Shown here: positions 2,817-32,325 of the stretch, in pieces
Layout: every line of letters begins with the position of its first letter
Position numbering within the stretch: the stretch's first letter is position 1
From: Marinilabiliaceae bacterium
GTDB lineage: Bacteria; Bacteroidota; Bacteroidia; Bacteroidales; Marinilabiliaceae
Length of the DNA stretch: 33,187 nucleotides
Direction of reading: 5' to 3'
Assembly: GCA_009777175.1 (NCBI GenBank)
Contig: WRMI01000033.1
Location: 1 to 33,187 of the forward strand
Made by a program: the position numbers and the translations under genes
Notes under the pieces: model-generated
Database searches by the model: none
Seen by the model: only the letters and a program-made list of their open reading frames with translations
Told to the model about the DNA's origin: nothing

Positions 2817-4082
2817 ATGAAAAATTGTTTTTTATTGTTATTTTCATTGCAGTTTTGTTTATATTCCTGTAATGAAATGAAAAATGATGAAGTATTCCAA
2901 AGAGTTGATGATATGGGGGTGGTTATTGCCACCCCCTTTCTTTGGAAAACAAGTTTGCATGAAAAGGAACCTGTTTCAAATGGCTTTGTTTTTCCTCCTG
3001 TATATTATATGGGAAATGTATTGATATCTACTACAAATGGTGATAAAAATGTAAACAAATTTACCTTAATTGATACGGATATAGGAAAAACGATTTGGAG
3101 TTGGGACGATCAATTTGAACCAAAATTTTCTGATTTGTATATCCGTTTTTATCATCAGTATAATAACATACTTACTTTTCAATGGGGAAGTTGGAGTTAT
3201 GGTATCAATTTGGATAATGGAACCTCTAAATGGCGCGAAAAACGTGATAGAAGTTTTGATGTGAGAATAGGTTCATTCGACAAATATTTTTTTTCTTATG
3301 CTGAGGTCATTAATAGTGATGGGTATAATGAATTTATTGCTTTCAAAGGAGATATGCAAACTGGGGTGTTATCTGAATTTCTTAAAGCAAATTTAGCCTT
3401 TGAACACCCTGATTGTGTTAGAGGTATTTATCATGTCACCCAAGTACCCAATCAAAAAAATCTTTTAGTTGTAACCTATTGTGAAAATCTGCCCGACTGG
3501 GTCACTCAACCTTATTTTGGACTGTATGATACAGAAACTTATGAATGGATATGGGATAAAATTTTGATTTTACCTCCAAAACCATCAAATGGGCTTTATT
3601 ATGAGCCTATTATTGTAAACAATAAAATATACGGAGCGATTTCCACTAGTATTGTATGCCATGATTTAGAAACGGGTAAACAATTATGGAAAAGAGAATT
3701 TAATGGCAACTTTGAAAGTGCGGGTATTATTTTAGAAGAAGGCAAAGTCATAGCAAACTGCGAAGATACATACGCCTACGCTTTAGAAGCAGAAACGGGC
3801 AATATTCTTTGGAGTGTAAAAACCGCGGGCACCTGCAGCCGTATGAGTTATCTAAACGGCGTTGTTTATATGGTTGGTGGTTCGGGTGGTGGGCGGCTTT
3901 TTGCAATTGAGGCGAGCACGGGCAAAATGTTATGGCGTATCGATGCTGGTTTACTCGGCGAGGGAGAAGGCGCAAGATTTAGAACAAATGCAGTGTATGT
4001 ACTACCCGCAAAAGATGACCAACCTGCAAAAGTTATTGCACTGAGCGATATGTATGCCTATTGCTTTGAGGCAGAGAGGTAG
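2817..4082 (+). CDS. PQQ-type beta-propeller repeat lipoprotein
   Basis: About 421 residues from the ATG at 2817; a GTG at 2811 in the same frame is less likely. The signal peptide ends in a lipobox (CLYSC). The mature part carries repeated blades with the PQQ/BamB signature of a short hydrophobic strand, D/E-x-x-T/N-G-K and then a Trp: TDIGKTIWSW, DNGTSKWREK, ETGKQLWKRE, ETGNILWSVK and STGKMLWRID. Such proteins fold into eight-bladed propellers that bind partners or, rarely, PQQ; no dehydrogenase active site is visible, so a scaffolding role is more likely. It is the third gene of the operon with the lipoprotein and hydrolase. The stop codon TAG is the first repeat-like unit of a GTTAGTG array. 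Confidence 0.82.
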   Translation: MKNCFLLLFSLQFCLYSCNEMKNDEVFQRVDDMGVVIATPFLWKTSLHEKEPVSNGFVFPPVYYMGNVLISTTNGDKNVNKFTLIDTDIGKTIWSWDDQFEPKFSDLYIRFYHQYNNILTFQWGSWSYGINLDNGTSKWREKRDRSFDVRIGSFDKYFFSYAEVINSDGYNEFIAFKGDMQTGVLSEFLKANLAFEHPDCVRGIYHVTQVPNQKNLLVVTYCENLPDWVTQPYFGLYDTETYEWIWDKILILPPKPSNGLYYEPIIVNNKIYGAISTSIVCHDLETGKQLWKREFNGNFESAGIILEEGKVIANCEDTYAYALEAETGNILWSVKTAGTCSRMSYLNGVVYMVGGSGGGRLFAIEASTGKMLWRIDAGLLGEGEGARFRTNAVYVLPAKDDQPAKVIALSDMYAYCFEAER

Positions 4083-4141
4083 TTAGTGGTTAGTGGTTAG
4101 CGGTTAGTGGTTATTGATTAGCGGTTAGCGGTTAGTGGTTA
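4080..4141 (+). repeat. Period-7 GTTAGTG tandem array at a stop codon
   Basis: About eight imperfect copies of the heptamer GTTAGTG (variants GTTAGCG, ATTAGCG, GTTATTG). The array starts at the TAG stop of the propeller gene and ends before the promoter region of the next gene. The unit contains TAG on this strand and TAA on the other, and because its period is not a multiple of three it closes all six frames within 21 bp. Confidence 0.9.
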
Positions 4142-11437: not shown

Positions 11438-12919
11438 ATGAAAAAAATAATAGTACTACTTATTCTATTGCCAACTTTTATATTTGGCAAGGCACAAATA
11501 ACCTTAGATTTAACTTTGGAACAGGCAATAGAATTAGCATACGTGCAGTCGCTTTACAGTTTTAGGGCAAAAAATATGTATTTAGCAAGTTATTGGGAAT
11601 TTAGGAGTTTTAAAGCCTCTCGTTTGCCCGGTCTTACTTTAAGGGCAACACCTGTAAGGTTTTCTCAAAGAGTTCAGCCCGACTATACCAACGAAAACTT
11701 TTTAAAAGTTCATACTTTTACTTCCTCCGGCGAATTAAGTATAAGTCAAAACTTTACACCAACAGGAGGAGTTTTTGAAATTGCGTCAAGCCTCGAAAGG
11801 ATAGAAAATTTCAGTAGTGAAAAAAAAGGTAGTCCCATTAGTTTTACATCATACCCTATTTCTATTGGTTTTGTACAATCACTTAACGGATACAACTCAT
11901 TTCGGTGGGAAGCAAAAACCGAGCCATTGAAATTTGAAATGGCTAAAAAGAACTACCTTCAATCGCTTCAAAGTATTGCGTTACAGACAATTATGGTCTT
12001 TTTTAATGCTATTGATGCCGAAATTGAAAAAGTGATTTCTGAAACTAACTATTCAAATGCTGATACTCTTCATCGCATTGGTAGTGGTAGGTTTGAAATT
12101 GGTACTGTTACGCAAGACGAACTTTTAGATTTAGAACTTGGACTACTGAATGCAGAGATTTCTCTATCAAGGTCTGAAATTGGCTTGCGAGAAGCAAGAA
12201 CATCTTTAAATTCTTTTTTGGGTTTACCCGAAGACATCAACATTAATTGTATTGTCCCTTTTGAAATACCTCCGTTAAAAGTAAATGTCGATGATGCCTT
12301 AAATTTAGCGCTTGAAAACAATCCTGATATATTAAATTACGAACTTAGCCTTCTGAATGCCAAAGAAAGAGTTGCTCAAACACGCGCAAATACGGGTTTA
12401 AATGCGTCAGTTAGAGCAAGTGCAGGATACAATAAACAGGACGAAAAATTGTCGGGTGTTTATCAGTCTCCTTACGAAAATAGTAACGCTGTTTTTGTTT
12501 CTCTTAATGTTCCGTTAGTAGATTGGGGATATAGAAAAGGACAAGTTCAGATGGCAAAATCTAATCAGGAAGTAACTGAAATTCAGGCTGCTCAAAATAT
12601 GATTGATTTTGAACAAAAAATTATTAATGAAGTTTTGAAATTTAATCTTCAGGAAAAACAGGTCGCAATAGCCTCAAAAGCCGATACAGTTGCTCAATTA
12701 GGTTTTAATGTTACAATGCAACGTTTTAGGATTGATAAAGTTGACGTAATTCGTTTAAATTCAGCACGAACGAGCCTCGATGCCGCCCGAAGAAATTATT
12801 ATAACGCTTTACGAAACTATTGGGCAAGTTTTTATACAATAAGGCAATTAACGCTATATGACTTTCTTAACGAAAAAACATTGATAGAGGAGTTGGATGA
12901 GCTGTTGCAAAAGAAGTGA
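11438..12919 (+). CDS. TolC-family outer-membrane efflux channel
   Basis: 493 residues from the ATG at 11438, where a proper signal peptide begins (MKKIIVLLILLPTFIFGKAQ). The frame is open back to 11315, but that part encodes no signal and overlaps a tandem repeat. Two outer-membrane efflux repeats are visible: LTLEQAIELAYVQS with a long helix around LSRSEIGLREARTSLNSFLGLP, and VDDALNLALENNPDILNYELSLLNAKERVAQTRAN followed by SLNVPLVDWGYRKGQVQMA. These form the trimeric beta-barrel and helical tunnel of type I/RND/MacAB-type exporters. A membrane-fusion protein follows about 390 bp later, beyond a repeat region. The stop TGA is part of a GTAGTGA array. Confidence 0.9.
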   Translation: MKKIIVLLILLPTFIFGKAQITLDLTLEQAIELAYVQSLYSFRAKNMYLASYWEFRSFKASRLPGLTLRATPVRFSQRVQPDYTNENFLKVHTFTSSGELSISQNFTPTGGVFEIASSLERIENFSSEKKGSPISFTSYPISIGFVQSLNGYNSFRWEAKTEPLKFEMAKKNYLQSLQSIALQTIMVFFNAIDAEIEKVISETNYSNADTLHRIGSGRFEIGTVTQDELLDLELGLLNAEISLSRSEIGLREARTSLNSFLGLPEDININCIVPFEIPPLKVNVDDALNLALENNPDILNYELSLLNAKERVAQTRANTGLNASVRASAGYNKQDEKLSGVYQSPYENSNAVFVSLNVPLVDWGYRKGQVQMAKSNQEVTEIQAAQNMIDFEQKIINEVLKFNLQEKQVAIASKADTVAQLGFNVTMQRFRIDKVDVIRLNSARTSLDAARRNYYNALRNYWASFYTIRQLTLYDFLNEKTLIEELDELLQKK

Positions 12920-13313
12920 GTAGTGAGTAATGAGTAGTGAGTAGTGAGTAGTGAGTAGTGAGTAATGAGTAATGAGTAGTGAGTAGCGAGTAGTGAGTAA
13001 TGAGTATTTAGTTATTAGAGAATGAGTGAATGAGTAAATGAGTGAATGAGTGAATGAGAAAATGAGTAAATGAGTAAGTGAGGGAATGAGTAAATGGGTG
13101 AATGAGTAAATAAGAAAAAACCTTATTTTTTTAACAAAACAACCTTAGTAGAAAAATGAGTAAATGAGTCATTAACCACTAATCACTAACCACTAACCAC
13201 TATTTTTGCGACCTTTGCGTTCTCAACTTTGCGCCTTTGCGTTAAAAAGAACCGTGAAAATTAATGTATTTCAATAAATTCAATAACAAATTCGTGGCTA
13301 AAATAAATAATAT
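12916..13313. repeat. Heptamer, octamer and module array between tolC-like and mfp genes
   Basis: 12916-13001 is a period-7 array of GTAGTGA/GTAATGA that begins at the TGA stop of the channel gene. 13020-13110 is a period-8 AATGAGTG/AATGAGTA array. Then follow the CAACCTTAGTAGAAAAATGAG module (13140-13160, one base beyond the 20-base core CAACCTTAGTAGAAAAATGA), an inverted-sense CCACTAA array (about 13170-13201), the CTCAACTTTGCGCCTTTGCG string (about 13221-13240) and the TATTTCAATAAATTCAATAA / ATTCGTGGCTAAA module (13266-13301) just before the next start codon. No gene is present. Confidence 0.88.
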
Positions 13314-14998: not shown

Positions 14999-15032
14999 TG
15001 CACGAATGGTAAAATTTTGTGCACGAATGGTA
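14999..15032 (+). promoter_or_regulatory. 13-bp direct repeat, candidate LytTR operator
   Basis: TGCACGAATGGTA occurs twice without mismatch, at 14999-15011 and 15020-15032, so the period is exactly 21 bp (two helical turns). It lies 15 bp upstream of a possible -33 element and 67 bp before the LytTR regulator start. LytTR domains are known to bind pairs of direct repeats about 21-22 bp apart, typically just upstream of the promoter, so autoregulation is the simplest reading. Confidence 0.6.
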
Positions 15033-15046
15033 TCTTTTTTTTATTT

Positions 15047-15073
15047 TTTGTATTGAAATTATTTATATTTTTG
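15047..15073 (+). promoter_or_regulatory. Probable promoter of the LytTR regulator
   Basis: TATTTTTG at 15066-15073 matches the -7 consensus exactly, with TTTG at 15047-15050 after a short 15-bp spacer. A weak -33 spacing fits an activated promoter. The 19-bp string ATTTTTGCAAAAAATTTTT here also occurs in the uvrD promoter at 20927-20945. Confidence 0.55.
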
Positions 15074-15098
15074 CAAAAAATTTTTACACACTTTTGTT

Positions 15099-15806
15099 AT
15101 GCATAGAATATTAATCGTTGACGACGAAAAACCCGCACGAGAATTTATTGCTCACTTAGTCTCGTCATTCTTAGAAAATTCTAAAATAGTACAAATTGAT
15201 AATCCAATTGATGCGTTAAATAAGTTACAGAAAGATTATTTTGACCTGCTTTTTTTGGATATTTGTATGCCCGATATGACAGGACTCGAACTTTTAGAAA
15301 AAATCCAACAAGCAGGAAAGTTCCCTTATACAGTGATTATTTCTGCTCATAGAGAATTTGACTATGCCGTCAAAGGTATAGAACTTAAAGTTGTCCAATA
15401 TATTACAAAACCCCTTTATAATGAAAAAATTAGAGGAGTTATCAATAATTATCTGAAATATATTAAAGAACAAACATTAGAACTTAAATTCCCAAGAGGT
15501 ACACTGCGAATTAAACATGACAGGATTGTTGCCATTGAAACATTAGAAAGAACAAAAGTGAAAATTTATACTACTAATGAGGTAATTTCTTTTGTAACAG
15601 GTCATTTGAGCAAGTTCTTTGAAATCCTTCCCAAAAATTTTAGATATATTAGGCGAGATTGTATCTTAAATTTCAACCTAATAGACGATTATAACAACAA
15701 ATCTAAAGAAGTAGAAGTAAATACAGCTTATGGCAAACTAACCTTTGCCGTCAGCAGAGACAATATGAAAAAAATAGTGAAACGAAGCGAGGAAATTAGT
15801 GGTTAG
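15099..15806 (+). CDS. LytTR-family response regulator
   Basis: A 235-residue two-domain regulator. The receiver domain (about 1-120) has the acidic pair Asp8-Asp9, the phospho-acceptor Asp54 in LFLDICMPDMTG, Ser82 in VIISAHREF and Lys104 in YITKP. The C-terminal LytTR DNA-binding domain (about 130-230) includes IVAIETLERTKVKIYTTNEVI, LPKNFRYIRRDCILNFNLID and VSRDNMKKI. It would be phosphorylated by the LytS-type kinase encoded 283 bp downstream. The 13-bp direct repeat upstream is a probable binding site. The last codons ATT AGT GGT TAG are part of the following GTTAGTG repeat array, so the C-terminal residues may be repeat-derived. Confidence 0.92.
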   Translation: MHRILIVDDEKPAREFIAHLVSSFLENSKIVQIDNPIDALNKLQKDYFDLLFLDICMPDMTGLELLEKIQQAGKFPYTVIISAHREFDYAVKGIELKVVQYITKPLYNEKIRGVINNYLKYIKEQTLELKFPRGTLRIKHDRIVAIETLERTKVKIYTTNEVISFVTGHLSKFFEILPKNFRYIRRDCILNFNLIDDYNNKSKEVEVNTAYGKLTFAVSRDNMKKIVKRSEEISG

Positions 15807-16080
15807 TGGTTAGTGGTTAGTGGTTAGTGATTAGTGGTTAGTGATTAGCGGTTAGTGGTTAGTGGTTAGTGATTAGCGGTTAGTGGTTAGTGATTAGTAG
15901 GGGCGCACCCTCTGTAAAGACGTGGCGTGCCACGTCTCTAAAATATTGTGTTCTTTGTGTATTTCAATAAATTCAATAACCAAAACCTTTGTGTTCTTTG
16001 AGGTAAAAAAATAGTTCTCAATTTTGCGACCTTGCGTTAAATTTATTAGTGAAAATTAGTGTAATTAGTGGTTAAATAAA
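15795..16080. repeat. GTTAGTG array, REP-like hairpin and pre-start strings
   Basis: 15795-15899 is a period-7 array of about 14 GTTAGTG/ATTAGTG/ATTAGCG units that overlaps the end of the regulator gene. It is followed by half of the TAGGGGCGCACCC unit joined to the hairpin GACGTGGC-GT-GCCACGTC (15919-15936), the TATTTCAATAAATTCAATAA string and a TTTTGCGACCTTGCGTTAAA string. No gene is present; the kinase gene starts just after it at 16090. Confidence 0.88.
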
Positions 16081-16089
16081 AAATAAAAT

Positions 16090-19000
16090 ATGAAAAAATC
16101 CGTGAAAATCCGTCAAATCCGCGTATCCCCCGCAGCAGTGCTATTTTCAATAATATTAATAGCAACCTCAATATCCCTGTATCCGAGGGAACATCCCAAA
16201 AAATGGTCTGAAACATACTCTCACCGCCATTTTGCGCTACGCGAAGGATTACCCGAATCTCAAGTTTTTTACGCATTCCAAGATAAGTTCGGATATATTT
16301 GGTTTTCAACTTTTAGAGGTGTAAGTCGTTTTGATGGTTTAAACTTTGAAAATTTTAGCAGTAGCGACCTGCAAATTGACGCTTATGTTAGGTATTACGC
16401 TCATTATGGCGACGCAGTTGTGCTAATTGCTACGAGAATGATTATTTTTTACCATCCAAACAAAACCATGGAATTTTTTCCAATACCTGAACCATACACT
16501 CTTGCTCGTTCGGGACACGAATCTCAAATCATTGGGGATAACATTTTTCTTTTTAATTGCTTTAATACAACGCAAACAAACATGAATATCCATTCCCTCC
16601 TCAAATTCAACCTTAAAAACAAAACTTTTTCAGTATTAGAGGATTATTTGCCAATGCTTTATACTTGGAAGTCTGCTGATGACAAAATTTATGCGTTACC
16701 ACAGCAATTAGAAAACCGTCAATTACCACTCTACCGTTTGAATGATAACAAACTACAAATTGTTCATATTACTGAATTAGAAGATGATTATAATTACCTC
16801 AATATGAGTACAACAAGCAAAAATGAATGGTACGGTAGCCTAACAAAGTCGAAACCCCATAGAATAGATGATTTATCTTTGCTAAACCGTTTTTATATTG
16901 AAAACGAAACACTTAAACGAGAATATATAATGTCTTTGCAAGAACAAGATGGCATTAGAATGGTTGAAAACCTTGATGATAATCGTTACATTATCGGTGT
17001 ACATTTTTCGTTATTTATACTTAATATAGATGAAAATAGTTTAACACCGTTCCCATTAGAAACTCGCGGCCCCTGGAAAATAATAGTTGACAATGATGGC
17101 TCATTTTGGCTTGCGTGTGAAGATGGTATATATCATTGCACAAAAAATTTTATGGAATATAAACTTGGGCTTAGTAAGAACGACAATATTTGGGGCGCTA
17201 TCAAAGATATTAACAACAACGTATGGTTTTCTTCGTATGATTACGGTTTTTGGAGGGCTGACAAAGATGGTTTTTTGCACGAAATTATACCTTACGATAA
17301 TGGAAAAAAGATTTCAACTATTGGATATATGAGCACTTCTACAGACAAGGAACATCGTATTTATTTGCCATTTCATGCAGGAATTGCCGTCCACGACCCT
17401 AATAAAATGAAACCTAATCATATAAAGCCAATTATGACAGGAGTTTCATTATCAATTTATTATGACGAAATAAGAGATGCTATATTTTTCGGCGGACATT
17501 CTGATACATGCAAAACCCTTAATATGTTGAAATCTGACGGTCAAATTGTTACATATCCTTTTGATAACAGGCATATTATCTCCCTTTGTCGCGATGGTAA
17601 TAATAATTTGCGAATTGGAACTTTCTACGGAATTGAATCTTATTTAGACGAAGAAAATGGTATTATAGTGAATGATACCACTTTGCGTCCTTATAATAGT
17701 GTTGAATGTATGGCAGTAGATAAATATGGAACACTTTGGAAGGGGGGTCTCAAAGGTCTTTTTGCCGAAAACATTCACGGGGTTGATAAACATATATTTG
17801 AACAAACGACTTTATTTGTAGCCAACTATCACAATCGATATATAATTTTTGGCACTAACCCCGAAGTTCATATTTTAGATTTAGAGTTGTTTCACGCTGA
17901 AAACAAAATTAATATACGTACCTTTGGCTATTATGATGGTTTCGATGTATGGGAGTGCGGTCAAAATGGCATAAGCATTGACCACGAGGGCTATGTTTGG
18001 GTTTGCGGAACCGACAAAGTAGTAGTTTTTCACCCTGATGAATTAATGAAAAAAACAATTTTGAAACCTCGAAAGCCTTTCATTGCGGCAATATATTCAT
18101 CCGACAGAGGTCATCAATGGCAGTTAGTTTCTGATACGCTAAATTTGCATACTAAATATAAAGAGAACAATTTGCGTTTCGACATTTTGCTTGCCGAGCC
18201 TTCAATGCCCGACAAAGTTATTTTTAGATATAGATTAAACGGCTTTGACGACCGATGGCAAATTTCAAACGACCGCACAATAATTTTTCAAAACCTACCC
18301 TTCGGAGAATATCAATTAGAAGTGCAATCATCGCTCGACCAAATAGAATGGTCGGATAGCGCTTTTTCGCAATATGTAGAGATTTTGCCACCTTTTTTGC
18401 TTTCAAAATTTGGATTATTGTTGATACTGCTCTTTGTGGCATCAACCGCTTTGCTTATTGTGAATATTACAAAAAAAATTATTAGGAAAAAAGAAGAGGC
18501 AAAACGACAAATCGATAAAATAAAATTCAAAGCGGTACAAGCAAAATTTATTCCTCACTTTACGGGAAATGTCTTAAATTCAGTCAATTATCTGATTTCC
18601 ATCAACCCTGACCTCGCACAAAAGTATGTCGCCGATTTTGCCGACTTTTCTAATAAAACGATTTTTAATAGCGATACTATTTGCCGTTCTATCCAAGAAG
18701 AACTCGAATATGTGCAACTATATTTGTCATTAGAAAAACTTCGATTTGAGGAGAGACTCGAATATGAAATTAATGTTGCCAAAGATGTAGACCCTAAAAC
18801 ATTAATTCCTACAATGGCAATGCATACTTTTTGCGAAAATGCACTCAAACACGGACTTAGAACTTTACATAACAGGAATGGGAAAATTCTCATAAATATA
18901 TACAGAGAAAATTCTCATCTAATTATTACAGTACAAGATAACGGGATAGGTCGTGAAAAAGCAAAAACTATTAAAACAGAAGGCACAAAAGAAGGGCTGA

Positions 19001-19131
19001 AAATTATTGCACAGCATTTAGAAATATTTAGCAAAGACCAAAAAGTTTCAACCCAAATGAAAATTATTGACCTGTTTGACGATGCCCACAACCCAGCCGG
19101 CACACTTGTTGAGTTGCGGATTGAGGAATGA
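16090..19131 (+). CDS. Two-component-propeller sensor histidine kinase (LytS/His_kinase type)
   Basis: A 1013-residue membrane sensor. An N-terminal signal or anchor (about 13-31) leads to a periplasmic region of two-component-propeller repeats, such as GYIWFSTFRGVSRFDGLNFENF at about 68-89 and several later D-x-x-G-x-x-W units, then a Y_Y_Y domain (about 690-765), a membrane helix (about 769-793) and a cytoplasmic kinase. The phospho-accepting His is His823 in AKFIPHFTGNVLNSVNYLI; the ATPase N-box is FCENALKHG (Asn917) and the G-box DNGIGRE starts at Asp950. This kinase class pairs with LytTR regulators such as the one encoded upstream. The first 12 codons read ATCCGTGAAAATCCGTCAAA-type sequence, resembling intergenic repeat DNA. 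The stop lies in an AATGAGG repeat. Confidence 0.92.
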   Translation: MKKSVKIRQIRVSPAAVLFSIILIATSISLYPREHPKKWSETYSHRHFALREGLPESQVFYAFQDKFGYIWFSTFRGVSRFDGLNFENFSSSDLQIDAYVRYYAHYGDAVVLIATRMIIFYHPNKTMEFFPIPEPYTLARSGHESQIIGDNIFLFNCFNTTQTNMNIHSLLKFNLKNKTFSVLEDYLPMLYTWKSADDKIYALPQQLENRQLPLYRLNDNKLQIVHITELEDDYNYLNMSTTSKNEWYGSLTKSKPHRIDDLSLLNRFYIENETLKREYIMSLQEQDGIRMVENLDDNRYIIGVHFSLFILNIDENSLTPFPLETRGPWKIIVDNDGSFWLACEDGIYHCTKNFMEYKLGLSKNDNIWGAIKDINNNVWFSSYDYGFWRADKDGFLHEIIPYDNGKKISTIGYMSTSTDKEHRIYLPFHAGIAVHDPNKMKPNHIKPIMTGVSLSIYYDEIRDAIFFGGHSDTCKTLNMLKSDGQIVTYPFDNRHIISLCRDGNNNLRIGTFYGIESYLDEENGIIVNDTTLRPYNSVECMAVDKYGTLWKGGLKGLFAENIHGVDKHIFEQTTLFVANYHNRYIIFGTNPEVHILDLELFHAENKINIRTFGYYDGFDVWECGQNGISIDHEGYVWVCGTDKVVVFHPDELMKKTILKPRKPFIAAIYSSDRGHQWQLVSDTLNLHTKYKENNLRFDILLAEPSMPDKVIFRYRLNGFDDRWQISNDRTIIFQNLPFGEYQLEVQSSLDQIEWSDSAFSQYVEILPPFLLSKFGLLLILLFVASTALLIVNITKKIIRKKEEAKRQIDKIKFKAVQAKFIPHFTGNVLNSVNYLISINPDLAQKYVADFADFSNKTIFNSDTICRSIQEELEYVQLYLSLEKLRFEERLEYEINVAKDVDPKTLIPTMAMHTFCENALKHGLRTLHNRNGKILINIYRENSHLIITVQDNGIGREKAKTIKTEGTKEGLKIIAQHLEIFSKDQKVSTQMKIIDLFDDAHNPAGTLVELRIEE

Positions 19132-19180
19132 GGAATGAGGGGTGTGGGGGATTTTTTGCTACAATTATAATTGCGAATTT

Positions 19181-19515
19181 TGCTATTTATAGATAGCATT
19201 TTTTTCATAAATATGCTATTTATAAATAGCAAGACTCACAAATTGATTTCTCAAAATACACAAAGCGTTAAATATCAAATTGTGCTCTTTGTGCATTTTT
19301 TGTGCACTTTGTGGAAGAGAACAATTTTAAAAATGCTATCTATAGATAGCATTTTATATAAGATTTTGCTACTTATAAATAGCATTTTATACAAATTATG
19401 CTACTTATAAATAGCATTTTTCACATAAATATGCTATTTATAAATATCATTTTTCAAAAAATAATGCTATTTATTAAAAACATTTTTTATAAAATTATGC
19501 TATTTATTAAAAACA
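19181..19515. repeat. Array of eight 18-bp palindromes at about 33-bp period
   Basis: Units related to TGCTATTTATAAATAGCA, a perfect palindrome, start at 19181, 19214, 19334, 19367, 19399, 19432, 19465 and 19498. Neighbouring starts are 33, 33, 32, 33, 33 and 33 bp apart, apart from one 120-bp interruption between units 2 and 3. Unit 3 (TGCTATCTATAGATAGCA) carries compensating changes in both arms. Units 7 and 8, nearest the gene, lose the right arm (TGCTATTTATTAAAAACA). The spacers are 14-15 bp, T-rich then A-rich and similar to one another. The array ends 6 bp before the -7 element of the ATPase gene. Confidence 0.93.
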
Positions 19516-19521
19516 TTTTTG

Positions 19522-19529
19522 TATCTTTG
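19522..19529 (+). promoter_or_regulatory. Probable -7 promoter element of the ATPase gene (TATCTTTG)
   Basis: An exact TAnnTTTG match 32 bp before the ATG at 19562. The expected -33 position falls inside the last palindrome unit, so a protein bound to the array would overlap the polymerase site. Confidence 0.6.
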
Positions 19530-19561
19530 CCGCCGAGAAAATTTATAATTAATAACTAAAA

Positions 19562-20758
19562 ATGTTCATTATGAATAATTTAATAAAAATTTATCTTAGA
19601 ATATTGCAAGAAACCGAGGTGAAATCATTTAGATATCTTTATTCAGATGTTGATTGGAACGAGAGGTGTATTGCCATTATTGGTGCAAAAGGTGTTGGAA
19701 AAACAACAATGATGTTACAACATATTAAGGCAACTTTTGAAGACAAAAATAAGGCGCTTTATGTAAGTTTAGACAATTCGTGGTTTGCCAATCATACAAT
19801 TTTTGAATTAGCAGACGAATTTTATATGAACGGGGGCACGCATTTGTTTTTGGACGAAATCCACCACTATCCCAATTGGGCAACACAAATAAAAAATATC
19901 TACGATAGTTTTCTTAAACTGAAAGTTATATTTACGGGTTCGTCGCTATTACAAATCTACAAATCAACGGCAGACCTGTCAAGAAGGGTTGTTTATGAAA
20001 AGTTGGAGGGCTTATCTTTCAGAGAATTTTTAAAATTTGAAAAAGTTGGCGATTTTCCCGTATTTTCGTTGAAAGAAATAGTTGAAAATCATCAAAATAT
20101 TGCTTTGCAGATTACAGAAAACATAAAAATAATGCCTTTATTTAAGAAGTATCTGAAAATCGGCTATTATATGTTTTACAAAGAAGGATTGAAAAAGTAC
20201 GACATAAAATTGCAAGAAGCGGTAAATAATGTCATTGATATTGATATTCCTGCCATTGAAAATATCGAGTTTGAATCAAGGCACAAATTAAAAAAGTTAT
20301 TAGCAATTCTCGCAAAATTAGTGCCTTATACGCCAAATATTACTGATTTGAGTAAAGCTATAGGCAGCAATAGGAACAATACAGTCAAATACTTATCATT
20401 GTTGGCTAATGCAAAACTATTGAATTTAGTTTCATACAAAAACAAAACAATTGGCGACCTTACAAAGCCCGATAAGGTTTTGCTCAATAATACCAATTTG
20501 TCCTACTTATTTGGCGAAAACGCTAACATTGGCAGTGCAAGAGAAACTTTTTTTGTTAATCAATTAAGCTCGGTCGCCGATGTTGTACTCGCGAAACAAG
20601 GGGATTTTATGATAGATAACTATACTTTTGAAGTCGGCGGGAAAAAGAAATCTTTTGACCAAATCAAAGATATACCAAACAGTTTTGTTGTAGCCGATGA
20701 TATTGAAATTGGATATAAAAACAAAATACCACTTTGGATGTTTGGACTACTATATTGA
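19562..20758 (+). CDS. AAA-family ATPase with DUF4143-type C-terminus
   Basis: A 398-residue protein of the large Bacteroidetes family of solitary ATP-binding proteins (AAA_14 plus DUF4143). Walker A is GAKGVGKT (41-48), Walker B LFLDEIHHYPNW (95-106), sensor FTGSS (124-128), followed by SRR (140-142) and LSFREFLKFE (151-160). The C-terminal region has a winged-helix-like stretch (TDLSKAIGSNRNNTVKYLSLLANAKLL) and the PD-(D/E)xK-like strand pair GDFMIDNYTFEVGGKKKSFDQI. The biochemical role of this family is not established. It stands alone, preceded by the palindrome array and followed by the helicase gene with its own promoter. An ATG three codons later (19571) is an equally possible start. 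Confidence 0.87.
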   Translation: MFIMNNLIKIYLRILQETEVKSFRYLYSDVDWNERCIAIIGAKGVGKTTMMLQHIKATFEDKNKALYVSLDNSWFANHTIFELADEFYMNGGTHLFLDEIHHYPNWATQIKNIYDSFLKLKVIFTGSSLLQIYKSTADLSRRVVYEKLEGLSFREFLKFEKVGDFPVFSLKEIVENHQNIALQITENIKIMPLFKKYLKIGYYMFYKEGLKKYDIKLQEAVNNVIDIDIPAIENIEFESRHKLKKLLAILAKLVPYTPNITDLSKAIGSNRNNTVKYLSLLANAKLLNLVSYKNKTIGDLTKPDKVLLNNTNLSYLFGENANIGSARETFFVNQLSSVADVVLAKQGDFMIDNYTFEVGGKKKSFDQIKDIPNSFVVADDIEIGYKNKIPLWMFGLLY

Positions 20759-20901
20759 AACATCTGTCTTGGTATTTGATATGAGCTTAAATTACAAAGC
20801 ATAAGCAAAATACCGCAAGTGTAAAAATAAGGTACTAAGATTGTTAAAACAAACAAAAATATTCTTTTTGAATGAAACTTTAACAAGTAGTTGATGTTTT
20901 T

Positions 20902-20933
20902 TTTGAACAATAGTAAAAATATTATTATTTTTG
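20902..20933 (+). promoter_or_regulatory. Probable uvrD/pcrA promoter
   Basis: TTTG at 20902-20905, a 20-bp spacer and TATTTTTG at 20926-20933, the best full match to the Bacteroidetes -33/-7 consensus in the window. It places the start at the ATG at 20957 rather than the upstream in-frame ATG at 20891, which lies before the promoter. Confidence 0.7.
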
Positions 20934-20956
20934 CAAAAAATTTTTTGAACATTATT

Positions 20957-23188
20957 ATGCATGAATATTTATCAGAACTAAACGAATCACAAAGAGAAGC
21001 GGTAGTTTCCACTGAAGGACCTGCGCTTGTTATTGCGGGTGCTGGGTCGGGGAAAACACGTGTCCTTACTTATAGGATTGCACACCTGCTAAACCTTGGT
21101 ATCCCACCGTGGCGTATTATTGCACTTACTTTTACCAATAAAGCCGCAAAAGAGATGAAAGAACGGATTTCTAAAATTGTTGACAACCACTCCGCTAAAC
21201 ATTTATGGATGGGTACATTTCACGCTATTTTTGCACGAATTTTAAGACGTGAAGCCGAATACCTTAAATATAAATCTAATTTTACAATTTATGATACAGA
21301 CGACTCTAAAAGTCTCATTAAAAGGATTATAAAAGAATTACAAATTGACGATAAAGCATATAAACCGAGCACAATTTTGTCGCGTATATCATCTGCAAAA
21401 AACGATTTACTACTCCCAAACGCATATATGGACGATATGAGAAGAACTATTGCCGATAAATATGCCAAAATTCCTCTTACGGGCGAAATTTATAGAAGAT
21501 ATATGACAGAATGTTTTAAAGCAGGTGCAATGGACTTTGACGACCTACTCCTTAATACAAATATCCTTTTCAGAGATTTCCCCGAAGTATTAGAAAAATA
21601 TAGAGAACTTTTTGCATATATCCTCGTTGACGAATATCAAGATACCAATTTTTCACAATACATTATTATTAAGCATATTGCATCGAAACATAACAATATT
21701 TGTGTTGTTGGAGATGACGCTCAAAGTATTTATAGTTTCAGAGGCGCAAGAATTGAAAATATTTTGAAGTTCGAAAAAGATTATTATGATTTTAAACTTT
21801 TTAAACTCGAACAAAATTACCGCTCTACACAGAATATTATTAAAGCCGCTAATAGTCTTATTGCTAAAAATAAAGGACAAATACCCAAAAAACTATTTTC
21901 AAAAAATGATATTGGCGAAAAAGTTAAAGTTTTTCAAGCATATTCTGATTCTGAAGAAGGTTATATTATTGTAAATGATATAAATAGCATACGTTCTAAA
22001 ACAGAAGTCAGTCTTGATGAAATAGCTATTCTATATCGGACCAATGCCCAATCGCGTATTTTTGAAGAAGCATTACGCAAAAACGGTATTCCTTACGTTA
22101 TTTACGGTGGTTTATCTTTTTATAGACGTAAAGAAATTAAAGATGTTCTTGCTTATTTCAGAATTGTTATAAATCCAAATGATAGCGAGGCATTAAAACG
22201 TATTATCAATGTTCCCGCTCGAGGAATAGGAAAAACTACCATCGATAGACTCGAACTACTTGCTGCTCAAAACGATACAACTTTATGGGATATTATAACA
22301 AGTCCAAATCTGTCTTCTTTCGGATTTAATGCGGGTACAATAAAAAAAATCGTACTATTTGTAAAACTAATTTCTGGTTTTGCAAAATTGGCAATAAATT
22401 TTTCTGCGATTAACCTTGCCAATGAAATAATTGAAAAATGTGGTATCATCGAAGAACTAAAAATCGACATATCTCCCGAAAATCAATCAAGAATTGAAAA
22501 CATTAATGAGTTGCTTAACGCTATTCAAGAGTTTTCTGATGAACGTTTAGAAACCGAACAAGAAGACTCCATGGCGCACTTTTTGGAAGAAGTTTCTCTA
22601 TTAACAGACCAAGATACTGAAAAACAGGTTGATATAAAAACGGTTAAACTTATGACCGTTCACTCGGCAAAAGGTTTAGAATTTGAGTATGTTTACGTTG
22701 TGGGTGCCGAAGAAAATTTGTTCCCATCTTATATGTCAATGGATTCTGAAGCAGAAATAGAAGAAGAGAGAAGGCTTTTTTACGTTGCTTTAACACGTGC
22801 AAAAATTCGTGCTGTTATATCGTATGCTAAAAGTCGTTTCAGACATGGAGGAATGGATTTCTCAGACCCAAGTAGGTTTATTGACGACATCGACCCCAAT
22901 TTTGTTGATAATGATTTTCAATTTAAATACAAAAAATTAGAAAACTTCAAAAAAGTTGAGCCCACTCAAAAGTTGTCTACAAAATTTTATAACCCCATTT
23001 CAAATATTAATTCCGAAACATTTTCAGGAGAATTTCAAATTGGAACAAATGTTTCACACGATAAATTTGGAAAAGGTATTATTACTGATTTAGAAGGAGA
23101 TAGTTCCAACCTCAAAGCTACAGTGGAATTTGTTAATGTGGGAAAAAAACAGTTAATGCTCAAATTTGCTAAATTAAAAGTTATTTAA
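20957..23188 (+). CDS. uvrD: UvrD/PcrA-family 3'-5' DNA helicase
   Basis: A 743-residue superfamily 1A helicase acting in repair and replication restart. It begins MHEYLSELNESQREAV (Q motif), then Walker A AGAGSGKT (27-34), motif Ia ALTFTNKAAKEMKER, motif II VDEYQDTN (Asp225-Glu226), motif III GDDAQSIYSFRGA, motif IV FKLEQNYRST, motif V MTVHSAKGLEFEYVYVVG and motif VI FYVALTRAK. The C-terminal tail (VSHDKFGKGIITDLEGD...VEFVNVGKKQLMLKFAKL) is the PcrA/UvrD polymerase-binding Tudor-like region, so the protein is complete. The stop codon TAA overlaps the first bases of a MITE-like repeat. PcrA is an equally valid name. Confidence 0.95.
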   Translation: MHEYLSELNESQREAVVSTEGPALVIAGAGSGKTRVLTYRIAHLLNLGIPPWRIIALTFTNKAAKEMKERISKIVDNHSAKHLWMGTFHAIFARILRREAEYLKYKSNFTIYDTDDSKSLIKRIIKELQIDDKAYKPSTILSRISSAKNDLLLPNAYMDDMRRTIADKYAKIPLTGEIYRRYMTECFKAGAMDFDDLLLNTNILFRDFPEVLEKYRELFAYILVDEYQDTNFSQYIIIKHIASKHNNICVVGDDAQSIYSFRGARIENILKFEKDYYDFKLFKLEQNYRSTQNIIKAANSLIAKNKGQIPKKLFSKNDIGEKVKVFQAYSDSEEGYIIVNDINSIRSKTEVSLDEIAILYRTNAQSRIFEEALRKNGIPYVIYGGLSFYRRKEIKDVLAYFRIVINPNDSEALKRIINVPARGIGKTTIDRLELLAAQNDTTLWDIITSPNLSSFGFNAGTIKKIVLFVKLISGFAKLAINFSAINLANEIIEKCGIIEELKIDISPENQSRIENINELLNAIQEFSDERLETEQEDSMAHFLEEVSLLTDQDTEKQVDIKTVKLMTVHSAKGLEFEYVYVVGAEENLFPSYMSMDSEAEIEEERRLFYVALTRAKIRAVISYAKSRFRHGGMDFSDPSRFIDDIDPNFVDNDFQFKYKKLENFKKVEPTQKLSTKFYNPISNINSETFSGEFQIGTNVSHDKFGKGIITDLEGDSSNLKATVEFVNVGKKQLMLKFAKLKVI

Positions 23189-23346
23189 CTTGCATTATTT
23201 ATAAGAAATGAAAATATCTTTTAACCACAAAGGAACACAAAAAATAACTGAAAACTGAACACAAAAAATAACTGAAAACTGAAAACTATTAATGCGTTCT
23301 CAACTTTGCGCCTTTGCGTTAAAATAAATTATGAATGATGTAGGTT
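23187..23346 (+). repeat. MITE-like element, copy B
   Basis: 160 bp bounded by inverted ends AACTTGCATTATTTATAA (23187-23204) and TTATGAATGATGTAGGTT (23329-23346), which match at 14 of 18 positions. The core matches copies A and C. A 24-bp internal piece around AACACAAAAAATAACTGAAA is tandemly duplicated. It begins inside the helicase stop codon and ends 19 bp before yicC, so it is the whole intergenic spacer. Confidence 0.8.
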
Positions 23347-23365
23347 AAAAAAAAAGATTTTTATT

Positions 23366-24241
23366 ATGATTAAATCCATGACAGGTTTTGGCAAAGCAAC
23401 ATTAGAACTGCCTCACCAAAAATTATATACTGAAATTAAAACACTGAATAGCAAACAGTTAGATATTACTATCAGATTACCTTTCGAATTAAGAGAAAAG
23501 GAATTTGAAATAAAAAACAGATTGTCGAACAAACTTAATAGAGGAAAAATTGACCTAATAATTGTGATAGAGCCGACAATTCCCGAAAAATCATCCAAAC
23601 TTAATATGCCTTTAATTGAAGATTATTATCATCAACTAAACAATTTTGCTTATAAATACAATTTATGCAACAATACTGATTTTCTAAAAATTATCCTATC
23701 ACTGCCCGATTCAATAACTACTGAATTACCACAATTTGAGGACGATGAGTGGGAAAAAATCATTATTTCTATTGACCAAGCCATCGAAGAAGTTGATAAA
23801 TTTAGACAACAAGAAGGCATCATTTTAGAAAACGATATGGTAAAACATGCCACCTCTATTGATGAAGCATTACAACAAATTGAACTATTTGAAAAACAAA
23901 GAATTGATAAAATTAAAACTAAAATTATTGAAAGTTCTAAAAACTTCTTAGAAATTAAACATTTTGACGAAAATAGATTTGAACAAGAACTTATCTATTA
24001 TATTGAAAAACTCGACTTTACAGAAGAAAAAGTAAGATTAAAAAAACATATCGACTACTTTTTTGAAACTCTAAAACAAGACGACCCTGTTGGGAAAAAA
24101 TTAGGGTTTATTTTACAAGAAATGGGTCGAGAAATTAATACTCTCGGCTCAAAAGCCTACGACGCTGATATTCAGAAAATTATTGTCATCATGAAAGACG
24201 AATTAGAAAAAATTAAAGAACAATCATCTAATATTCTTTGA
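23366..24241 (+). CDS. yicC: YicC/YloC-family endoribonuclease
   Basis: A 291-residue protein of the YicC family, which has RNase activity and acts in RNA turnover. The N-terminus MIKSMTGFGKATLE and EIKTLNSKQLDITIRLP are diagnostic, as is the C-terminal DUF1732 region (KLDFTEEKVRLKKHIDYFFETLKQDDPVGKKLGFILQEMGREINTLGSKA). Length is normal for the family. In many genomes the next gene is gmk; here a repeat region and convergent genes follow instead. The upstream spacer is entirely MITE-like element, so transcription must start within it or read through from uvrD. Confidence 0.93.
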   Translation: MIKSMTGFGKATLELPHQKLYTEIKTLNSKQLDITIRLPFELREKEFEIKNRLSNKLNRGKIDLIIVIEPTIPEKSSKLNMPLIEDYYHQLNNFAYKYNLCNNTDFLKIILSLPDSITTELPQFEDDEWEKIIISIDQAIEEVDKFRQQEGIILENDMVKHATSIDEALQQIELFEKQRIDKIKTKIIESSKNFLEIKHFDENRFEQELIYYIEKLDFTEEKVRLKKHIDYFFETLKQDDPVGKKLGFILQEMGREINTLGSKAYDADIQKIIVIMKDELEKIKEQSSNIL

Positions 24242-24257
24242 AAGTGTTAAAAAAAAG

Positions 24258-24600
24258 TAAATGAGTGAATGAGTAAATGAGTGTAGGGGCGCACCCTTGC
24301 GGTCGTCCACCTTGTAATAAATGAGTGAATGGGTGAATGAGTGAATGAGAAAATGAGTGAATGAGAAAATGAGTAAATGAGAAAATGAGCAAATGAGAAA
24401 ATGAGAAAATGAGAAAAAACCTTATTTTTACCTTATTTTTTCAACAAAACAACCTTAGTAGAAAAATGAGTGAAAGAGTTATTTACCACTAACCACTAAC
24501 CACTAACCACTAATCACTAACCACTAATTTTTGCGTTCTCAACTTTGCGACTTTGCGGTAAAAAATATTATGAATAATGCAGGCTAAATATATTATGCTA
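24258..24600. repeat. Composite intergenic repeat region between convergent genes
   Basis: A period-8 AATGAGTG array interrupted by the TAGGGGCGCACCCTTGCGGT hairpin unit (24284-24303), a long AATGAGAA array, the AACAAAACAACCTTAGTAG module, the CCACTAA heptamer array (24486-24528), a TTTGCGTTCTCAACTTTGCG string (24531-24550) and the right end of the MITE-like element (ATGAATAATGCAGG at about 24570-24583). The module order nearly copies the regions before the TolC and adaptor genes. It separates yicC from the convergent murF-alr gene. No gene is present. Confidence 0.88.
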
Positions 24601-24616
24601 TTAAATTAAACTCTTT

Positions 24617-27079
24617 TCACTCCTTAAAATATACTCTTTTTACCCTTCGACCGATGCTTGTTAAAATTTCGTAGGGAATTGTGTCTAATTGTTTTGCTAT
24701 TTCTGTAAGATGATACTCATTTCCAAAAATGATAACTTCATCTCCTTCTTTAACATTTATTATAGATGAAATATCTATCATACTCATATCCATACAAATA
24801 TTTCCAACAATGGGAGCAAGTTTGCCGTTAACCAAAACTTTGCCCTTTCCACAACTTAGTTTACGATTAAATCCATCAGCATATCCAATTGGAATAACTG
24901 CAATAACACCTTTATTTTCAAAACGTTGCGCACAACCATATCCGACTGTTTCACCAGCAGCAACTCTTTTTATTTGTGAAATATAAGTTTTCAGAGTAAC
25001 GGCATTTTCTAAGCGTTTGTCGTTAATTGCACTAATACCGTACAAACCAATTCCAATCCTTACCATATCAAAATGAGCATCAGGGAAACGTTCAATGCCC
25101 GATGAATTTAAGATATGACGAAGAAAATTGTATTGAAGTTCTGATTTAATTTTTTCACAAACATTTTTGAAACGAGCAATTTGTTTTTGTGTAAAATCAT
25201 CGAGTTCTGGTTCGGAACTTCCTGCAAGGTGCGAAAAAACTGATTTGACTCTCAAATTGGGCATAGATTTTAAGGCGGCTATTAATTTTTCAGTTTCTTC
25301 CAAACGAAAACCAAGACGATTCATACCCGTATCTATTTTGATGTGAATAGAAATATTAGACACACCCTCATTTTCGACCGCTTTATTGAAAGCATTTAAA
25401 ATTTTGAAAGAAAATATTTCAGGTTCGAGTCCAAGTTTCAGCATTGTGCTAAAACTATTTTCTTCGGGGTTCATCACAATAATAGGTAACGAAATTCCTG
25501 CTTGGCGAAGTTCTGTTCCTTCGTCGGCAAATGCAACGCCTAAATAATCAACTTTATGATGTTGTAATACGCTTGCAATTTCGTGCGAACCACTCCCATA
25601 TCCGAAAGCTTTAATCATTGCAAGAACCTTTGTATCAGAATTTAATCGTGAACGAAAAATATTTAAGTTATTAATCAGAGCGTTAAGATTAATTTCTAAT
25701 AACGTATTATGTTGTTTTGTTTCCAATTGCGACACAATTCGCTCAAATTCAAAAGAACGCGCTCCTTTTATCAAAACCGCTTCTTTAGCAAATGAAAAAC
25801 TATGCAAAATAGAGAGTAACTCTTCGGTAGTTTTGAAAAATCGGGCATTTTTGTCAAACAGATGCGTAAAAGAAGAAATAACTTTGCCAACGCCAAACAA
25901 TCTATCAATATGGTTATTTTTAAGTAGTTGGGCAACTTTTTCATAAAGTTTAGCGTCAGACATACCGCTTTGAAACATATCAGAAAGGATAATTGTCCGT
26001 TTTATTCCTTTTTTTTGCCCTTGTTGGTTCAAAAAGTCGAGCGCAAGTTCCAAAGATGTCAAATCAGAACTATATGTGTCATTGATAATTAATGCGCCGC
26101 CAACTCCCTCTTTATGTTCCAAACGCATTTCGACAGGTTGAAGTTGTTTCAATTTTTGTTGAAGATATTCTGCGTCATATCCTTTGAATAACAAAAAAAG
26201 TAGTACAAACAAAGCATTTTCAATTGAAGCAGCATCCTCAAAAGGTAATGTCCATTTATATTCTCTTTTGTTCCAAATAGTTGTGATTATTGTTTGAATA
26301 TTATGTTCAACAGAAACAATTCTAAGGTCAGCATCTTTATTATTTCCCCACGTAATTAGTTGTTTATCAGAATATAATTCTTTAATTTTGGTATCAATCA
26401 AATGATGATCTTTGCAATAAAAAATAGTATCAACATCTCTAAAAAGAATCAATTTTTCGGATAATTTCTCTTCTAAGGAAATAAAATTTTGCTGGTGAGG
26501 TGCGCCAATATTAGTAAATAAACCCAAAGAAGGCTTAATAATTTTTTCCAAATTTAACATTTCCTCTTTTTTGCTAATACCTGCTTCCAAAACGGCAAAA
26601 TCACTCTTATGATTAATTTGCCACACCGAAAGCGGAACTCCCACTTGACTGTTGTAACTTCTTGGAGAACGGGTAATTGTCTCCTTTTCGTTAGCCATTT
26701 GCCAAATCCACTCTTTTACAATTGTTTTGCCGTTACTGCCCGTAATTGCAAGCACAGGAATAGAAAAATTCTTACGATGATTTGAAACTAATAACTGCAA
26801 TGCATACAAAACATCTTTGACAAAATAGTAATTAGCAGCGAAACAATCTTGTGGTATCTCAAAATGATTAACCACAACAAAATTACGCACTCCTTTTGTA
26901 TATAGTTCATTAATAAAACGATGACCGTCGTGTCGTATTCCATTCAGAGCAAAAAATATTGATTCGGACGGATTAATAATCGACCGACTATCAATAGCAA
27001 GCAAAGAAACAGGCTCTATTGAGCGCATTTCAAGTTGAGCAGCCATCATGGTTGCGAGGTCGCGCGGAAAGTATTTCAT
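24617..27079 (-). CDS. murF-alr: Bifunctional MurF ligase / alanine racemase fusion
   Basis: An 820-residue fusion providing D-Ala and attaching D-Ala-D-Ala to UDP-MurNAc-tripeptide for peptidoglycan. The MurF half (about 1-455) has the ATP loop ITGSNGKT (112-119), SYNSQVGVPL, VLEAGISKKEEM and VEMRLE plus INDTYSSDLTSLELAL. The racemase half starts near LLEINLNALINNL; Lys490 in MIKAFGYGSG is the PLP lysine, followed by IKIDTGMNRLGF, MVRIGIGLYG, VGYGCAQRF (Tyr714, probable second catalytic base) and IPIGYADGFNRK. This fusion is a known Bacteroidetes trait. It begins one base after the aminotransferase stop codon, so the two genes are co-transcribed and probably translationally coupled. Confidence 0.96.
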   Translation of the reverse strand: MKYFPRDLATMMAAQLEMRSIEPVSLLAIDSRSIINPSESIFFALNGIRHDGHRFINELYTKGVRNFVVVNHFEIPQDCFAANYYFVKDVLYALQLLVSNHRKNFSIPVLAITGSNGKTIVKEWIWQMANEKETITRSPRSYNSQVGVPLSVWQINHKSDFAVLEAGISKKEEMLNLEKIIKPSLGLFTNIGAPHQQNFISLEEKLSEKLILFRDVDTIFYCKDHHLIDTKIKELYSDKQLITWGNNKDADLRIVSVEHNIQTIITTIWNKREYKWTLPFEDAASIENALFVLLFLLFKGYDAEYLQQKLKQLQPVEMRLEHKEGVGGALIINDTYSSDLTSLELALDFLNQQGQKKGIKRTIILSDMFQSGMSDAKLYEKVAQLLKNNHIDRLFGVGKVISSFTHLFDKNARFFKTTEELLSILHSFSFAKEAVLIKGARSFEFERIVSQLETKQHNTLLEINLNALINNLNIFRSRLNSDTKVLAMIKAFGYGSGSHEIASVLQHHKVDYLGVAFADEGTELRQAGISLPIIVMNPEENSFSTMLKLGLEPEIFSFKILNAFNKAVENEGVSNISIHIKIDTGMNRLGFRLEETEKLIAALKSMPNLRVKSVFSHLAGSSEPELDDFTQKQIARFKNVCEKIKSELQYNFLRHILNSSGIERFPDAHFDMVRIGIGLYGISAINDKRLENAVTLKTYISQIKRVAAGETVGYGCAQRFENKGVIAVIPIGYADGFNRKLSCGKGKVLVNGKLAPIVGNICMDMSMIDISSIINVKEGDEVIIFGNEYHLTEIAKQLDTIPYEILTSIGRRVKRVYFKE

Positions 27080-31867: not shown

Positions 31868-32325
31868 GGTATTTGGTATTCAGTATTCACTACTAACTAA
31901 AAAAAGAGGAACACAAATCTGTGCCCCTCTTATAGTTATCTGTGAATTAGTATTCAGTATTCAGTATTTAGTATTCAGTAATCAGTATTCAGTAATCAGT
32001 ATTTAGTAATCAGTATTTAGTACAAAAAGAGGAGCACAAACCTGTGCCCCTCTTATTGTTTTAGTTTTCAGTTATCAGTTATCAGTATTCAGTATTCAGT
32101 ATTTAGTATTTAGTATTTAGTATTCAGTATTCAGTATTCAGTATTCAGTATTCAGTATTCAGTATTCAGTATTCAGTATTCAGTATTCAGTATTCATTAT
32201 TCAGTATTCAGTACACACTACCCACTACACACTACACACTACTCACTACACACTACTAACCACTAACCACTAACCACTAACCACTAACCACTAACCACTA
32301 ACCACTAACCACGAACCACTAATTC
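31868..32325. repeat. Long TATTCAG / CCACTAA heptamer region with two hairpins
   Basis: Period-7 TATTCAG/TATTTAG/TAATCAG arrays fill 31934-32026 and 32066-32215, followed by CACTAC and then CCACTAA arrays to 32325. Two nearly identical hairpins with AAGAGG...CCTCTT stems and inner CACA/TGTG stems sit at 31904-31931 and 32027-32054. The CCACTAA array, read on the minus strand, starts within the stop codon of the T9SS protein gene. Confidence 0.9.

Follow-up and report, generated by a model that had tools for sequence, protein, structure and literature searches.

A phased palindrome array as the probable self-addressed operator of an AAA_14 ATPase gene in a Marinilabiliaceae bacterium

The subject of this work is an array of 18-bp palindromes located at positions 19181 to 19515 of a 33,187-nucleotide stretch of Marinilabiliaceae DNA (contig WRMI01000033.1, assembly GCA_009777175.1; the whole stretch is referred to below as the window), upstream of a forward-strand gene encoding an AAA_14 ATPase. 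Comparison with the upstream regions of related genes suggests that the array is a self-addressed operator, and it is likely that the ATPase binds it and represses its own gene, both binding and repression being predicted from sequence comparison. According to the model that we propose, the ATPase encoded downstream would bind the phased palindromes through its own winged helix, with a dimer on each palindrome and adjacent dimers cooperating, probably via their AAA domains. RNA polymerase would be blocked at the promoter-proximal unit, and the protein would be let go on ATP or a signal. Such tight control would restrain the effector part of the protein, proposed to be the C-terminal PD-(D/E)XK-like domain, presumably acting as a nuclease.

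The eight units, of the type TGCTATTTATAAATAGCA, start at positions 19181, 19214, 19334, 19367, 19399, 19432, 19465 and 19498, and the last one ends at 19515, 6 bp 5' of TATCTTTG (19522 to 19529), a predicted -7 element that we assigned by the motif TANNTTTG, taken here to be the Bacteroidota-type -7 sequence. The usual position of the -33 element would, we assume, coincide with this last palindrome (19498 to 19515), whose center lies 15.5 bp 5' of the -7 element and which is the predicted operator on the -33 region, as judged from its sequence and from the phase observed across the family. The number of units and the extent of the array agree with those given by an earlier reading made from the letters of the window (the sequence-only reading), but the strict 32- to 33-bp period that it described is interrupted, the successive spacings being 33, 120, 33, 32, 33, 33 and 33 bp. 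Hence a first part with two units 33 bp apart (19181 to 19198 and 19214 to 19231) is separated by a CACAAAG-rich stretch (19232 to 19333) from a second part with the other six units (19334 to 19515; spacings of 33, 32, 33, 33 and 33 bp), which obtained a score of 201 in Tandem Repeats Finder. In this genome, segments rich in CACAAAG/CTTTGTG break up the arrays of two separate ATPase genes, at 19232 to 19333 of the window and upstream of the paralog L046, possibly through recurrent insertion into arrays.

Between 19151 and 19530, six 18-mers have 8 or more of their 9 pairs intact, compared with 0.36 on average when the same region was shuffled 300 times; the entire window contains 17. The sequence-only reading held that dyad symmetry was maintained; this stands for unit 3 (19334), which is changed in a paired manner in both arms, but that unit is the sole case, and units 1, 4, 5 and 6 each carry one broken pair (8 of 9 pairs). 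Units 7 and 8, with 6 of 9 pairs, had been read as a loss of the right arm near the promoter. This is probably not a local event, as many units in the 78 to 89% identical relatives are shaped like the asymmetric promoter-proximal form (e.g., TGCTATTTATAAGAAACA). Within its own genome (3.09 Mb, 82% complete), the palindrome at up to one mismatch was confined to this array, where it was found at six sites, each of them on either strand; units 7 and 8 diverge too far to be picked up by the pattern. The 32- to 33-bp period corresponds to about three helical turns and places the units on one face of the helix, which is consistent with the same-face binding of dimers that had been suggested earlier.

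CRISPR repeats are separated by unique spacers of some 20 to 40 bp and have cas genes nearby. A CRISPR array was ruled out here, in agreement with the sequence-only reading, by the 14- to 15-bp, AT-rich and mutually similar spacers inside the runs; no cas domain was detected in the five neighboring open reading frames (ORFs) scanned beside the ATPase gene.

To describe the family, 190 loci of relatives were collected from the part of the matches that successive searches listed (30, 80 and 80 loci), and 172 non-redundant ones were kept after removing 18 that were at least 95% identical to another, shorter than 300 amino acids or provided with less than 150 bp of upstream DNA. From a hold-out set of 106 loci, 85 remained once 21 that were short or redundant (90% identity or more to another locus) had been dropped; alignment was done jointly with the discovery set, to whose members the hold-out loci are at most 90% identical (median identity to the closest, 56%). 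The self-similarity of the 165 bp upstream of the 172 relatives had its maximum at lags of 32 and 33 and increased again at 65 to 66. The best lag was 32 or 33 in 104 of the 172, versus 39 of 461 upstream regions of other ORFs from the same loci and 263 of 3,440 shuffles. An array caller requiring two 18-bp palindromes 32 or 33 bp apart, with its threshold at the 99th percentile of control genes, was positive in 117 of the 172 relatives, compared with 5 of 471 controls and 2 of 516 dinucleotide shuffles, and in 43 of the 85 hold-out relatives. It replaced a first caller with a lax threshold (169 of 172 called), which was not calibrated on control genes. Two of the five positive controls (L214 and L065) proved to be AAA_14/DUF4143 ATPases, distant relatives of the window protein.

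Similar results were obtained with more distant members. The best lag upstream was 32 or 33 for 23 of 28 relatives of the paralog L041, which matches the defense candidate PDC-S01 (see below), and for 17 of 26 relatives of the DUF4143 paralog L039 (28 of 29 and 26 of 28 loci were usable, respectively), versus 5 of 67 control ORFs. In the genome of the window itself, 28 AAA_14 matches were found and 17 tested; among the 16 with enough upstream DNA, 11, the window gene included, had a best lag of 32 or 33. As far as sequence can tell, the phased array in front of most tested members is a family-wide architecture, of which the window array is one case, and the suggestion of a DNA element linked to the ATPase was borne out when the relatives were checked for the association. 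Since the palindrome varies by gene, a search of relatives for TGCTATNTATANATAGCA, as had been proposed, would miss most arrays. The array threshold was also passed by relatives from metagenome-assembled genomes labeled Lachnospiraceae (L117 and L133) and Spirochaetales (L137), and barely by one labeled Verrucomicrobia (L130); these labels possibly reflect binning errors. The array of another paralog, L050, appears to consist of two blocks, each following a copy of a CCACTTGTTTTGTGTAGAGCGCGAAA-type stretch.

The position of the arrays relative to the promoter was analyzed with the TANNTTTG motif closest to the start codon, picked blind to the array; 27 of 160 arrays lacked such a motif. The units kept the same phase relative to the predicted -7 motif in 115 of 133 arrays (28.6 expected; P = 1.6e-57), with a phase window of 7 bp and a modulus of 32.6 bp, the repeat length, that were both chosen after the histogram was seen. 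The proximal unit as called lay upstream of the motif in 111 of the 133, overlapped it in 10 and lay downstream in 12, all of the latter in the same phase, so that the -7 motif occupies the place of a spacer. When dyad symmetry was aligned on the motif, it was raised at -15.5 and -47.5 but also at -1.5, -31 and 7.5; the claim of phase therefore relies on the nearest-motif test. As in an autoregulatory operator, the sites stand in fixed phase to the gene's own promoter in those 115 arrays, and this phase-locking favors an operator over the centromere-like (parS-like) site that the sequence-only reading had listed. Neither ParA nor ParB was found among the same five neighboring ORFs, the remaining ORFs of the window not having been scanned. 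In the relatives L091, L110, L112 and L115, palindromes follow a -7-like motif but precede the start codon, and hence would be part of the transcript.

The same data bear on whether the arrays could be neutral tandem duplications or elements acting at the RNA level, which we consider extremely unlikely. The spacers inside some arrays are mutually similar, as duplication would produce, and duplication probably contributed to array growth. Against both explanations stand the period common to unrelated sequences, the palindromy and the promoter phase, and the 111 arrays with called units upstream of the -7 motif keep those units outside its transcript.

The sequence of the palindrome differed widely from gene to gene. 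A total of 141 distinct 8-bp half-sites were called in 198 arrays, a few of the calls being visibly out of phase, and 100 were distinct at positions 2 to 6; examples are TGTATTTT..AAAATACA, TAGTGTTT..AAACACTA, TCACTTTT..AAAAGTGA and TTTGTAAT..ATTACAAA. The repeats of the AAA_14 paralogs in the window's genome also differ from one another, and two further ones are private or nearly so, their own gene accounting for 6 of 6 matches in one case and for 7 of 8 in the other. No half-sites shared within genomes (at least 7 of 8 bases) were found in 32 pairs, a test without power because only 0.68 such pairs were expected. The exact 18-bp palindrome of the window occurred in one contig of a viral collection, as a single site with no listed ORF of at least 70 amino acids within 1 kb, and this match was taken as chance. 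With one address per gene, many paralogs could share a genome without cross-repression, and a gene could travel together with its array.

The bases of the half-site covaried with the DNA-binding helix of the ATPase. In the AlphaFold2 model, the winged helix spans residues 237 to 290 (20270 to 20431; mean predicted local distance difference test score, 90.5), and its recognition helix residues 271 to 283 (20372 to 20410). The mutual information shared by protein columns and half-site bases was calculated for 140 discovery and 58 hold-out genes, that is, the 198 of 257 whose arrays exceeded the 95th percentile of controls. The best 11-residue windows started at residues 265 (discovery) and 267 (hold-out) in the numbering of L006, which is that of the window protein minus three, and correspond to the recognition helix. 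Helix columns exceeded the rest with P values of 8.5e-5 and 3.9e-4, respectively, and mutual information revealed no helix signal for spacer or flank bases (P, 0.11 to 0.67). Over all 198 arrays, the top covarying columns were R271 and N272. When residue 272 was N, base 4 of the half-site was T in 71 and A in 35 of 109 arrays; with D it was C in 16 of 26, with E it was A in 14 of 20, and with R it was G in 11 of 11. The hold-out set alone gave 3 of 3 for R-G and 4 of 5 for D-C. In edge-disjoint contrasts on the tree, base 4 differed in 20 of 28 pairs with a different residue 272, versus 15 of 53 pairs with the same residue (P = 2e-4). Apart from base 4, a value below 0.05 was obtained at one half-site position of seven, position 3 (P = 0.03).

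Since the half-site tracks the recognition helix of the ATPase itself, self-binding is favored over the titration of another regulator, which the sequence-only reading had entertained. That the palindromes are bound by some other host regulator rather than by the ATPase is in our view very improbable. The covariation is correlative, which leaves such a protein some room; however, the half-sites follow the ATPase recognition helix and the spacer bases do not, and the tested words are restricted, entirely or almost so, to a single gene of the genome and differ among paralogs.

Several observations weigh against the self-addressed operator. No array was called at the 99th percentile in 55 of the 172 relatives and 42 of the 85 hold-out relatives, and the top-scoring control array (L215), unexplained, fronts a gene that is not a relative and looks nitroreductase-like by eye. 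In that locus, the palindromes TATCTTGTATACAAGATA and TATCTTGCATACAAGATA lie 33 bp apart upstream of a 221-amino-acid ORF. As to the covariation, the E-A pairing was seen in 1 of 2 hold-out cases, the R-G association perhaps reflects only two gains on the tree, and one of three spacer positions also gave a P value of 0.009 in the tree contrasts. In a pairwise hold-out test with the helix window fixed beforehand, that window came 26th among 374, the top ranks being taken by windows near residue 340; even so, only 4 of 2,000 permutations attained the helix value. A pairwise version using nine columns picked after the discovery data was discounted as non-independent, and its hold-out counterpart was weaker. 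Finally, repression is preferred to activation solely from the position of the sites.

The ATPase gene comprises 398 codons (19562 to 20758), the start shared with relatives being the ATG at 19571. The protein contains an AAA_14 domain at residues 34 to 157 (19661 to 20032; PF13173, 100.6 bits against a cut-off of 27, E value 8.7e-29), followed by the winged helix, both forming one SSO1545-like AAA+ winged-helix fold. The DUF4143 label of the sequence-only reading did not hold for this protein, which scored 19.6 bits against PF13635, below the cut-off of 28.1 that 9 of 10 paralogs scanned in its genome exceeded. COG1373 is, we presume, the family to which the ATPase belongs. Fold and motif comparison assigned a putative PD-(D/E)XK-like domain (D348, E357-VGGK) to residues 319 to 398 (20516 to 20755), a region for which Foldseek alone gave no match at an E value of 0.001. 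The archaeal AAA+ ATPases SSO1545 (2FNA) and PABY2304 (2QEN) had no sequence match to the window protein at E values up to 1 and do not cover its C-terminal domain.

In 16 relatives with 78 to 89% identity, DNA similarity to the window (15001 to 25000) set in within the array or immediately downstream of it and ended at 20745 to 20763, at the stop codon. Among these relatives, the alignment extended beyond 250 bp on the 5' side of the gene or 150 bp on its 3' side in only 2 of 120 pairs, some loci having little flanking sequence. The ATPase shares 79 to 83% identity with copies from three other families, whereas the adjacent UvrD shares 64% with its counterpart in a genome of the same genus (G700), so that transfer between families is likely. 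Sequence comparison likewise indicates that gene and array have likely moved together by horizontal transfer. In the excerpted text of one study, COG1373 appears among genes co-shared between genera (PMC10782964). The neighboring histidine kinase had matches (26 to 29% identity) in 3 of 40 other genomes of the family.

These borders, which coincide with the array and the stop codon, and the likely cross-family transfer would also suit a mobile single-gene cassette, in which the array would be the recognition end, the ATPase-nuclease would move or copy array and gene, and promoter control would be secondary. We regard this as unlikely. The genome search revealed no palindrome sites outside the upstream array, which leaves the 3' end without any; a search that used the two neighboring genes did not turn up an empty site; and divergence alone also predicts the loss of alignment in intergenic DNA. 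Moreover, a cassette leaves the phase-locking with the promoter unexplained.

PDC-S01 is a PADLOC defense candidate, an ATPase of the AAA_14/DUF4143 type. The five paralogs of this genome that were scanned all matched it near full length (best E values, 1.7e-137 to 1e-178), and the best lag upstream of all five was 32 or 33. The window protein matched it partially (E value, 4.6e-23; residues 34 to 307 of 398), and thus would be at most a sister subfamily. A defense role of the window ATPase and its relatives may follow from this likeness. PDC-S01 is described in PMC12988326 as the fourth most common defense across prokaryotes, with an ATPase and a PD-(D/E)XK domain joined in one protein. No mention of upstream arrays was found in the available portions of that source and of PMC13356809, and the words operator and promoter are absent from the main text of the former. 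Defense also suggests an array serving as a holding site, where the bound ATPase would be inactive until phage infection or foreign DNA freed the nuclease, transcriptional control being a by-product; we deem this quite improbable. The covariation indicative of self-recognition, the full-length PDC-S01 candidates among the paralogs and a number of units higher than a simple repressor requires are all in accordance with it. The present data cannot separate it from autorepression, but the phase-lock to the promoter motif speaks for a role in transcription.

Intergenic arrays of 7- to 8-bp tandem units were also observed in the window (4082 to 4141, 12915 to 13109, 15796 to 15898, 24319 to 24417 and 31949 to 32322), with units such as GTTAGTG, AGTGAGT, TTAGTGG, AATGAGTG, AGTATTC and CACTAAC in up to about 39 copies. 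Similar runs of short units were present upstream of other ATPase genes of the genome (L039, L042 and L046).

Autoregulated repressors with multiple operators are known from phages and toxin-antitoxin operons, and autoregulated operators as such are of an already known kind. The family described here resembles those repressors in the repeated site over the own promoter and in the fast-diversifying specificities. It differs from them in three respects: the protein predicted to bind the DNA is itself an AAA ATPase that carries a nuclease-like domain, successive units are set about three helical turns apart, and a single genome contains many paralogs whose addresses differ. IniR also binds a promoter and has an AAA domain likened to that of SSO1545, but its target is a separate operon, iniBAC, which it induces; its middle domain resembles MalT, and its DNA-binding C terminus resembles SdiA (PMC5760070). 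The Thermus AAA_14/DUF4143 gene TT_P0211, located downstream of a CRISPR array, is listed with a value of 6.6 in a table of genes changed by plasmid presence, as given in an extract of PMC4406477. In the literature searched, which left out most subscription journals, we found no upstream repeats for DUF4143, COG1373, AAA_14 or DUF234 genes; with few such journals covered, no AAA ATPase-nuclease family with private, three-turn-phased operator arrays was found either.

Tentatively, and with less confidence than for the window array itself, AAA_14/DUF4143 ATPases, including PDC-S01, might be seen as self-addressed one-gene immune switches that combine a sensor ATPase, a repressor and a nuclease in one protein. 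The address would be a phased array written in a residue-272-to-base-4 code, with at least 10 orthogonal copies per genome and jumps of array plus gene between families. A cognate DNA site would make this opaque family testable, providing a gel-shift target and a reporter for the releasing signal. The arrays would likewise constitute a natural library of protein-DNA specificity, whose recognition code could be read and then checked by single substitutions. Binding of each ATPase to its own site would offer a first handle on very common, largely untested candidate antiviral genes, which include relatives of the window gene.
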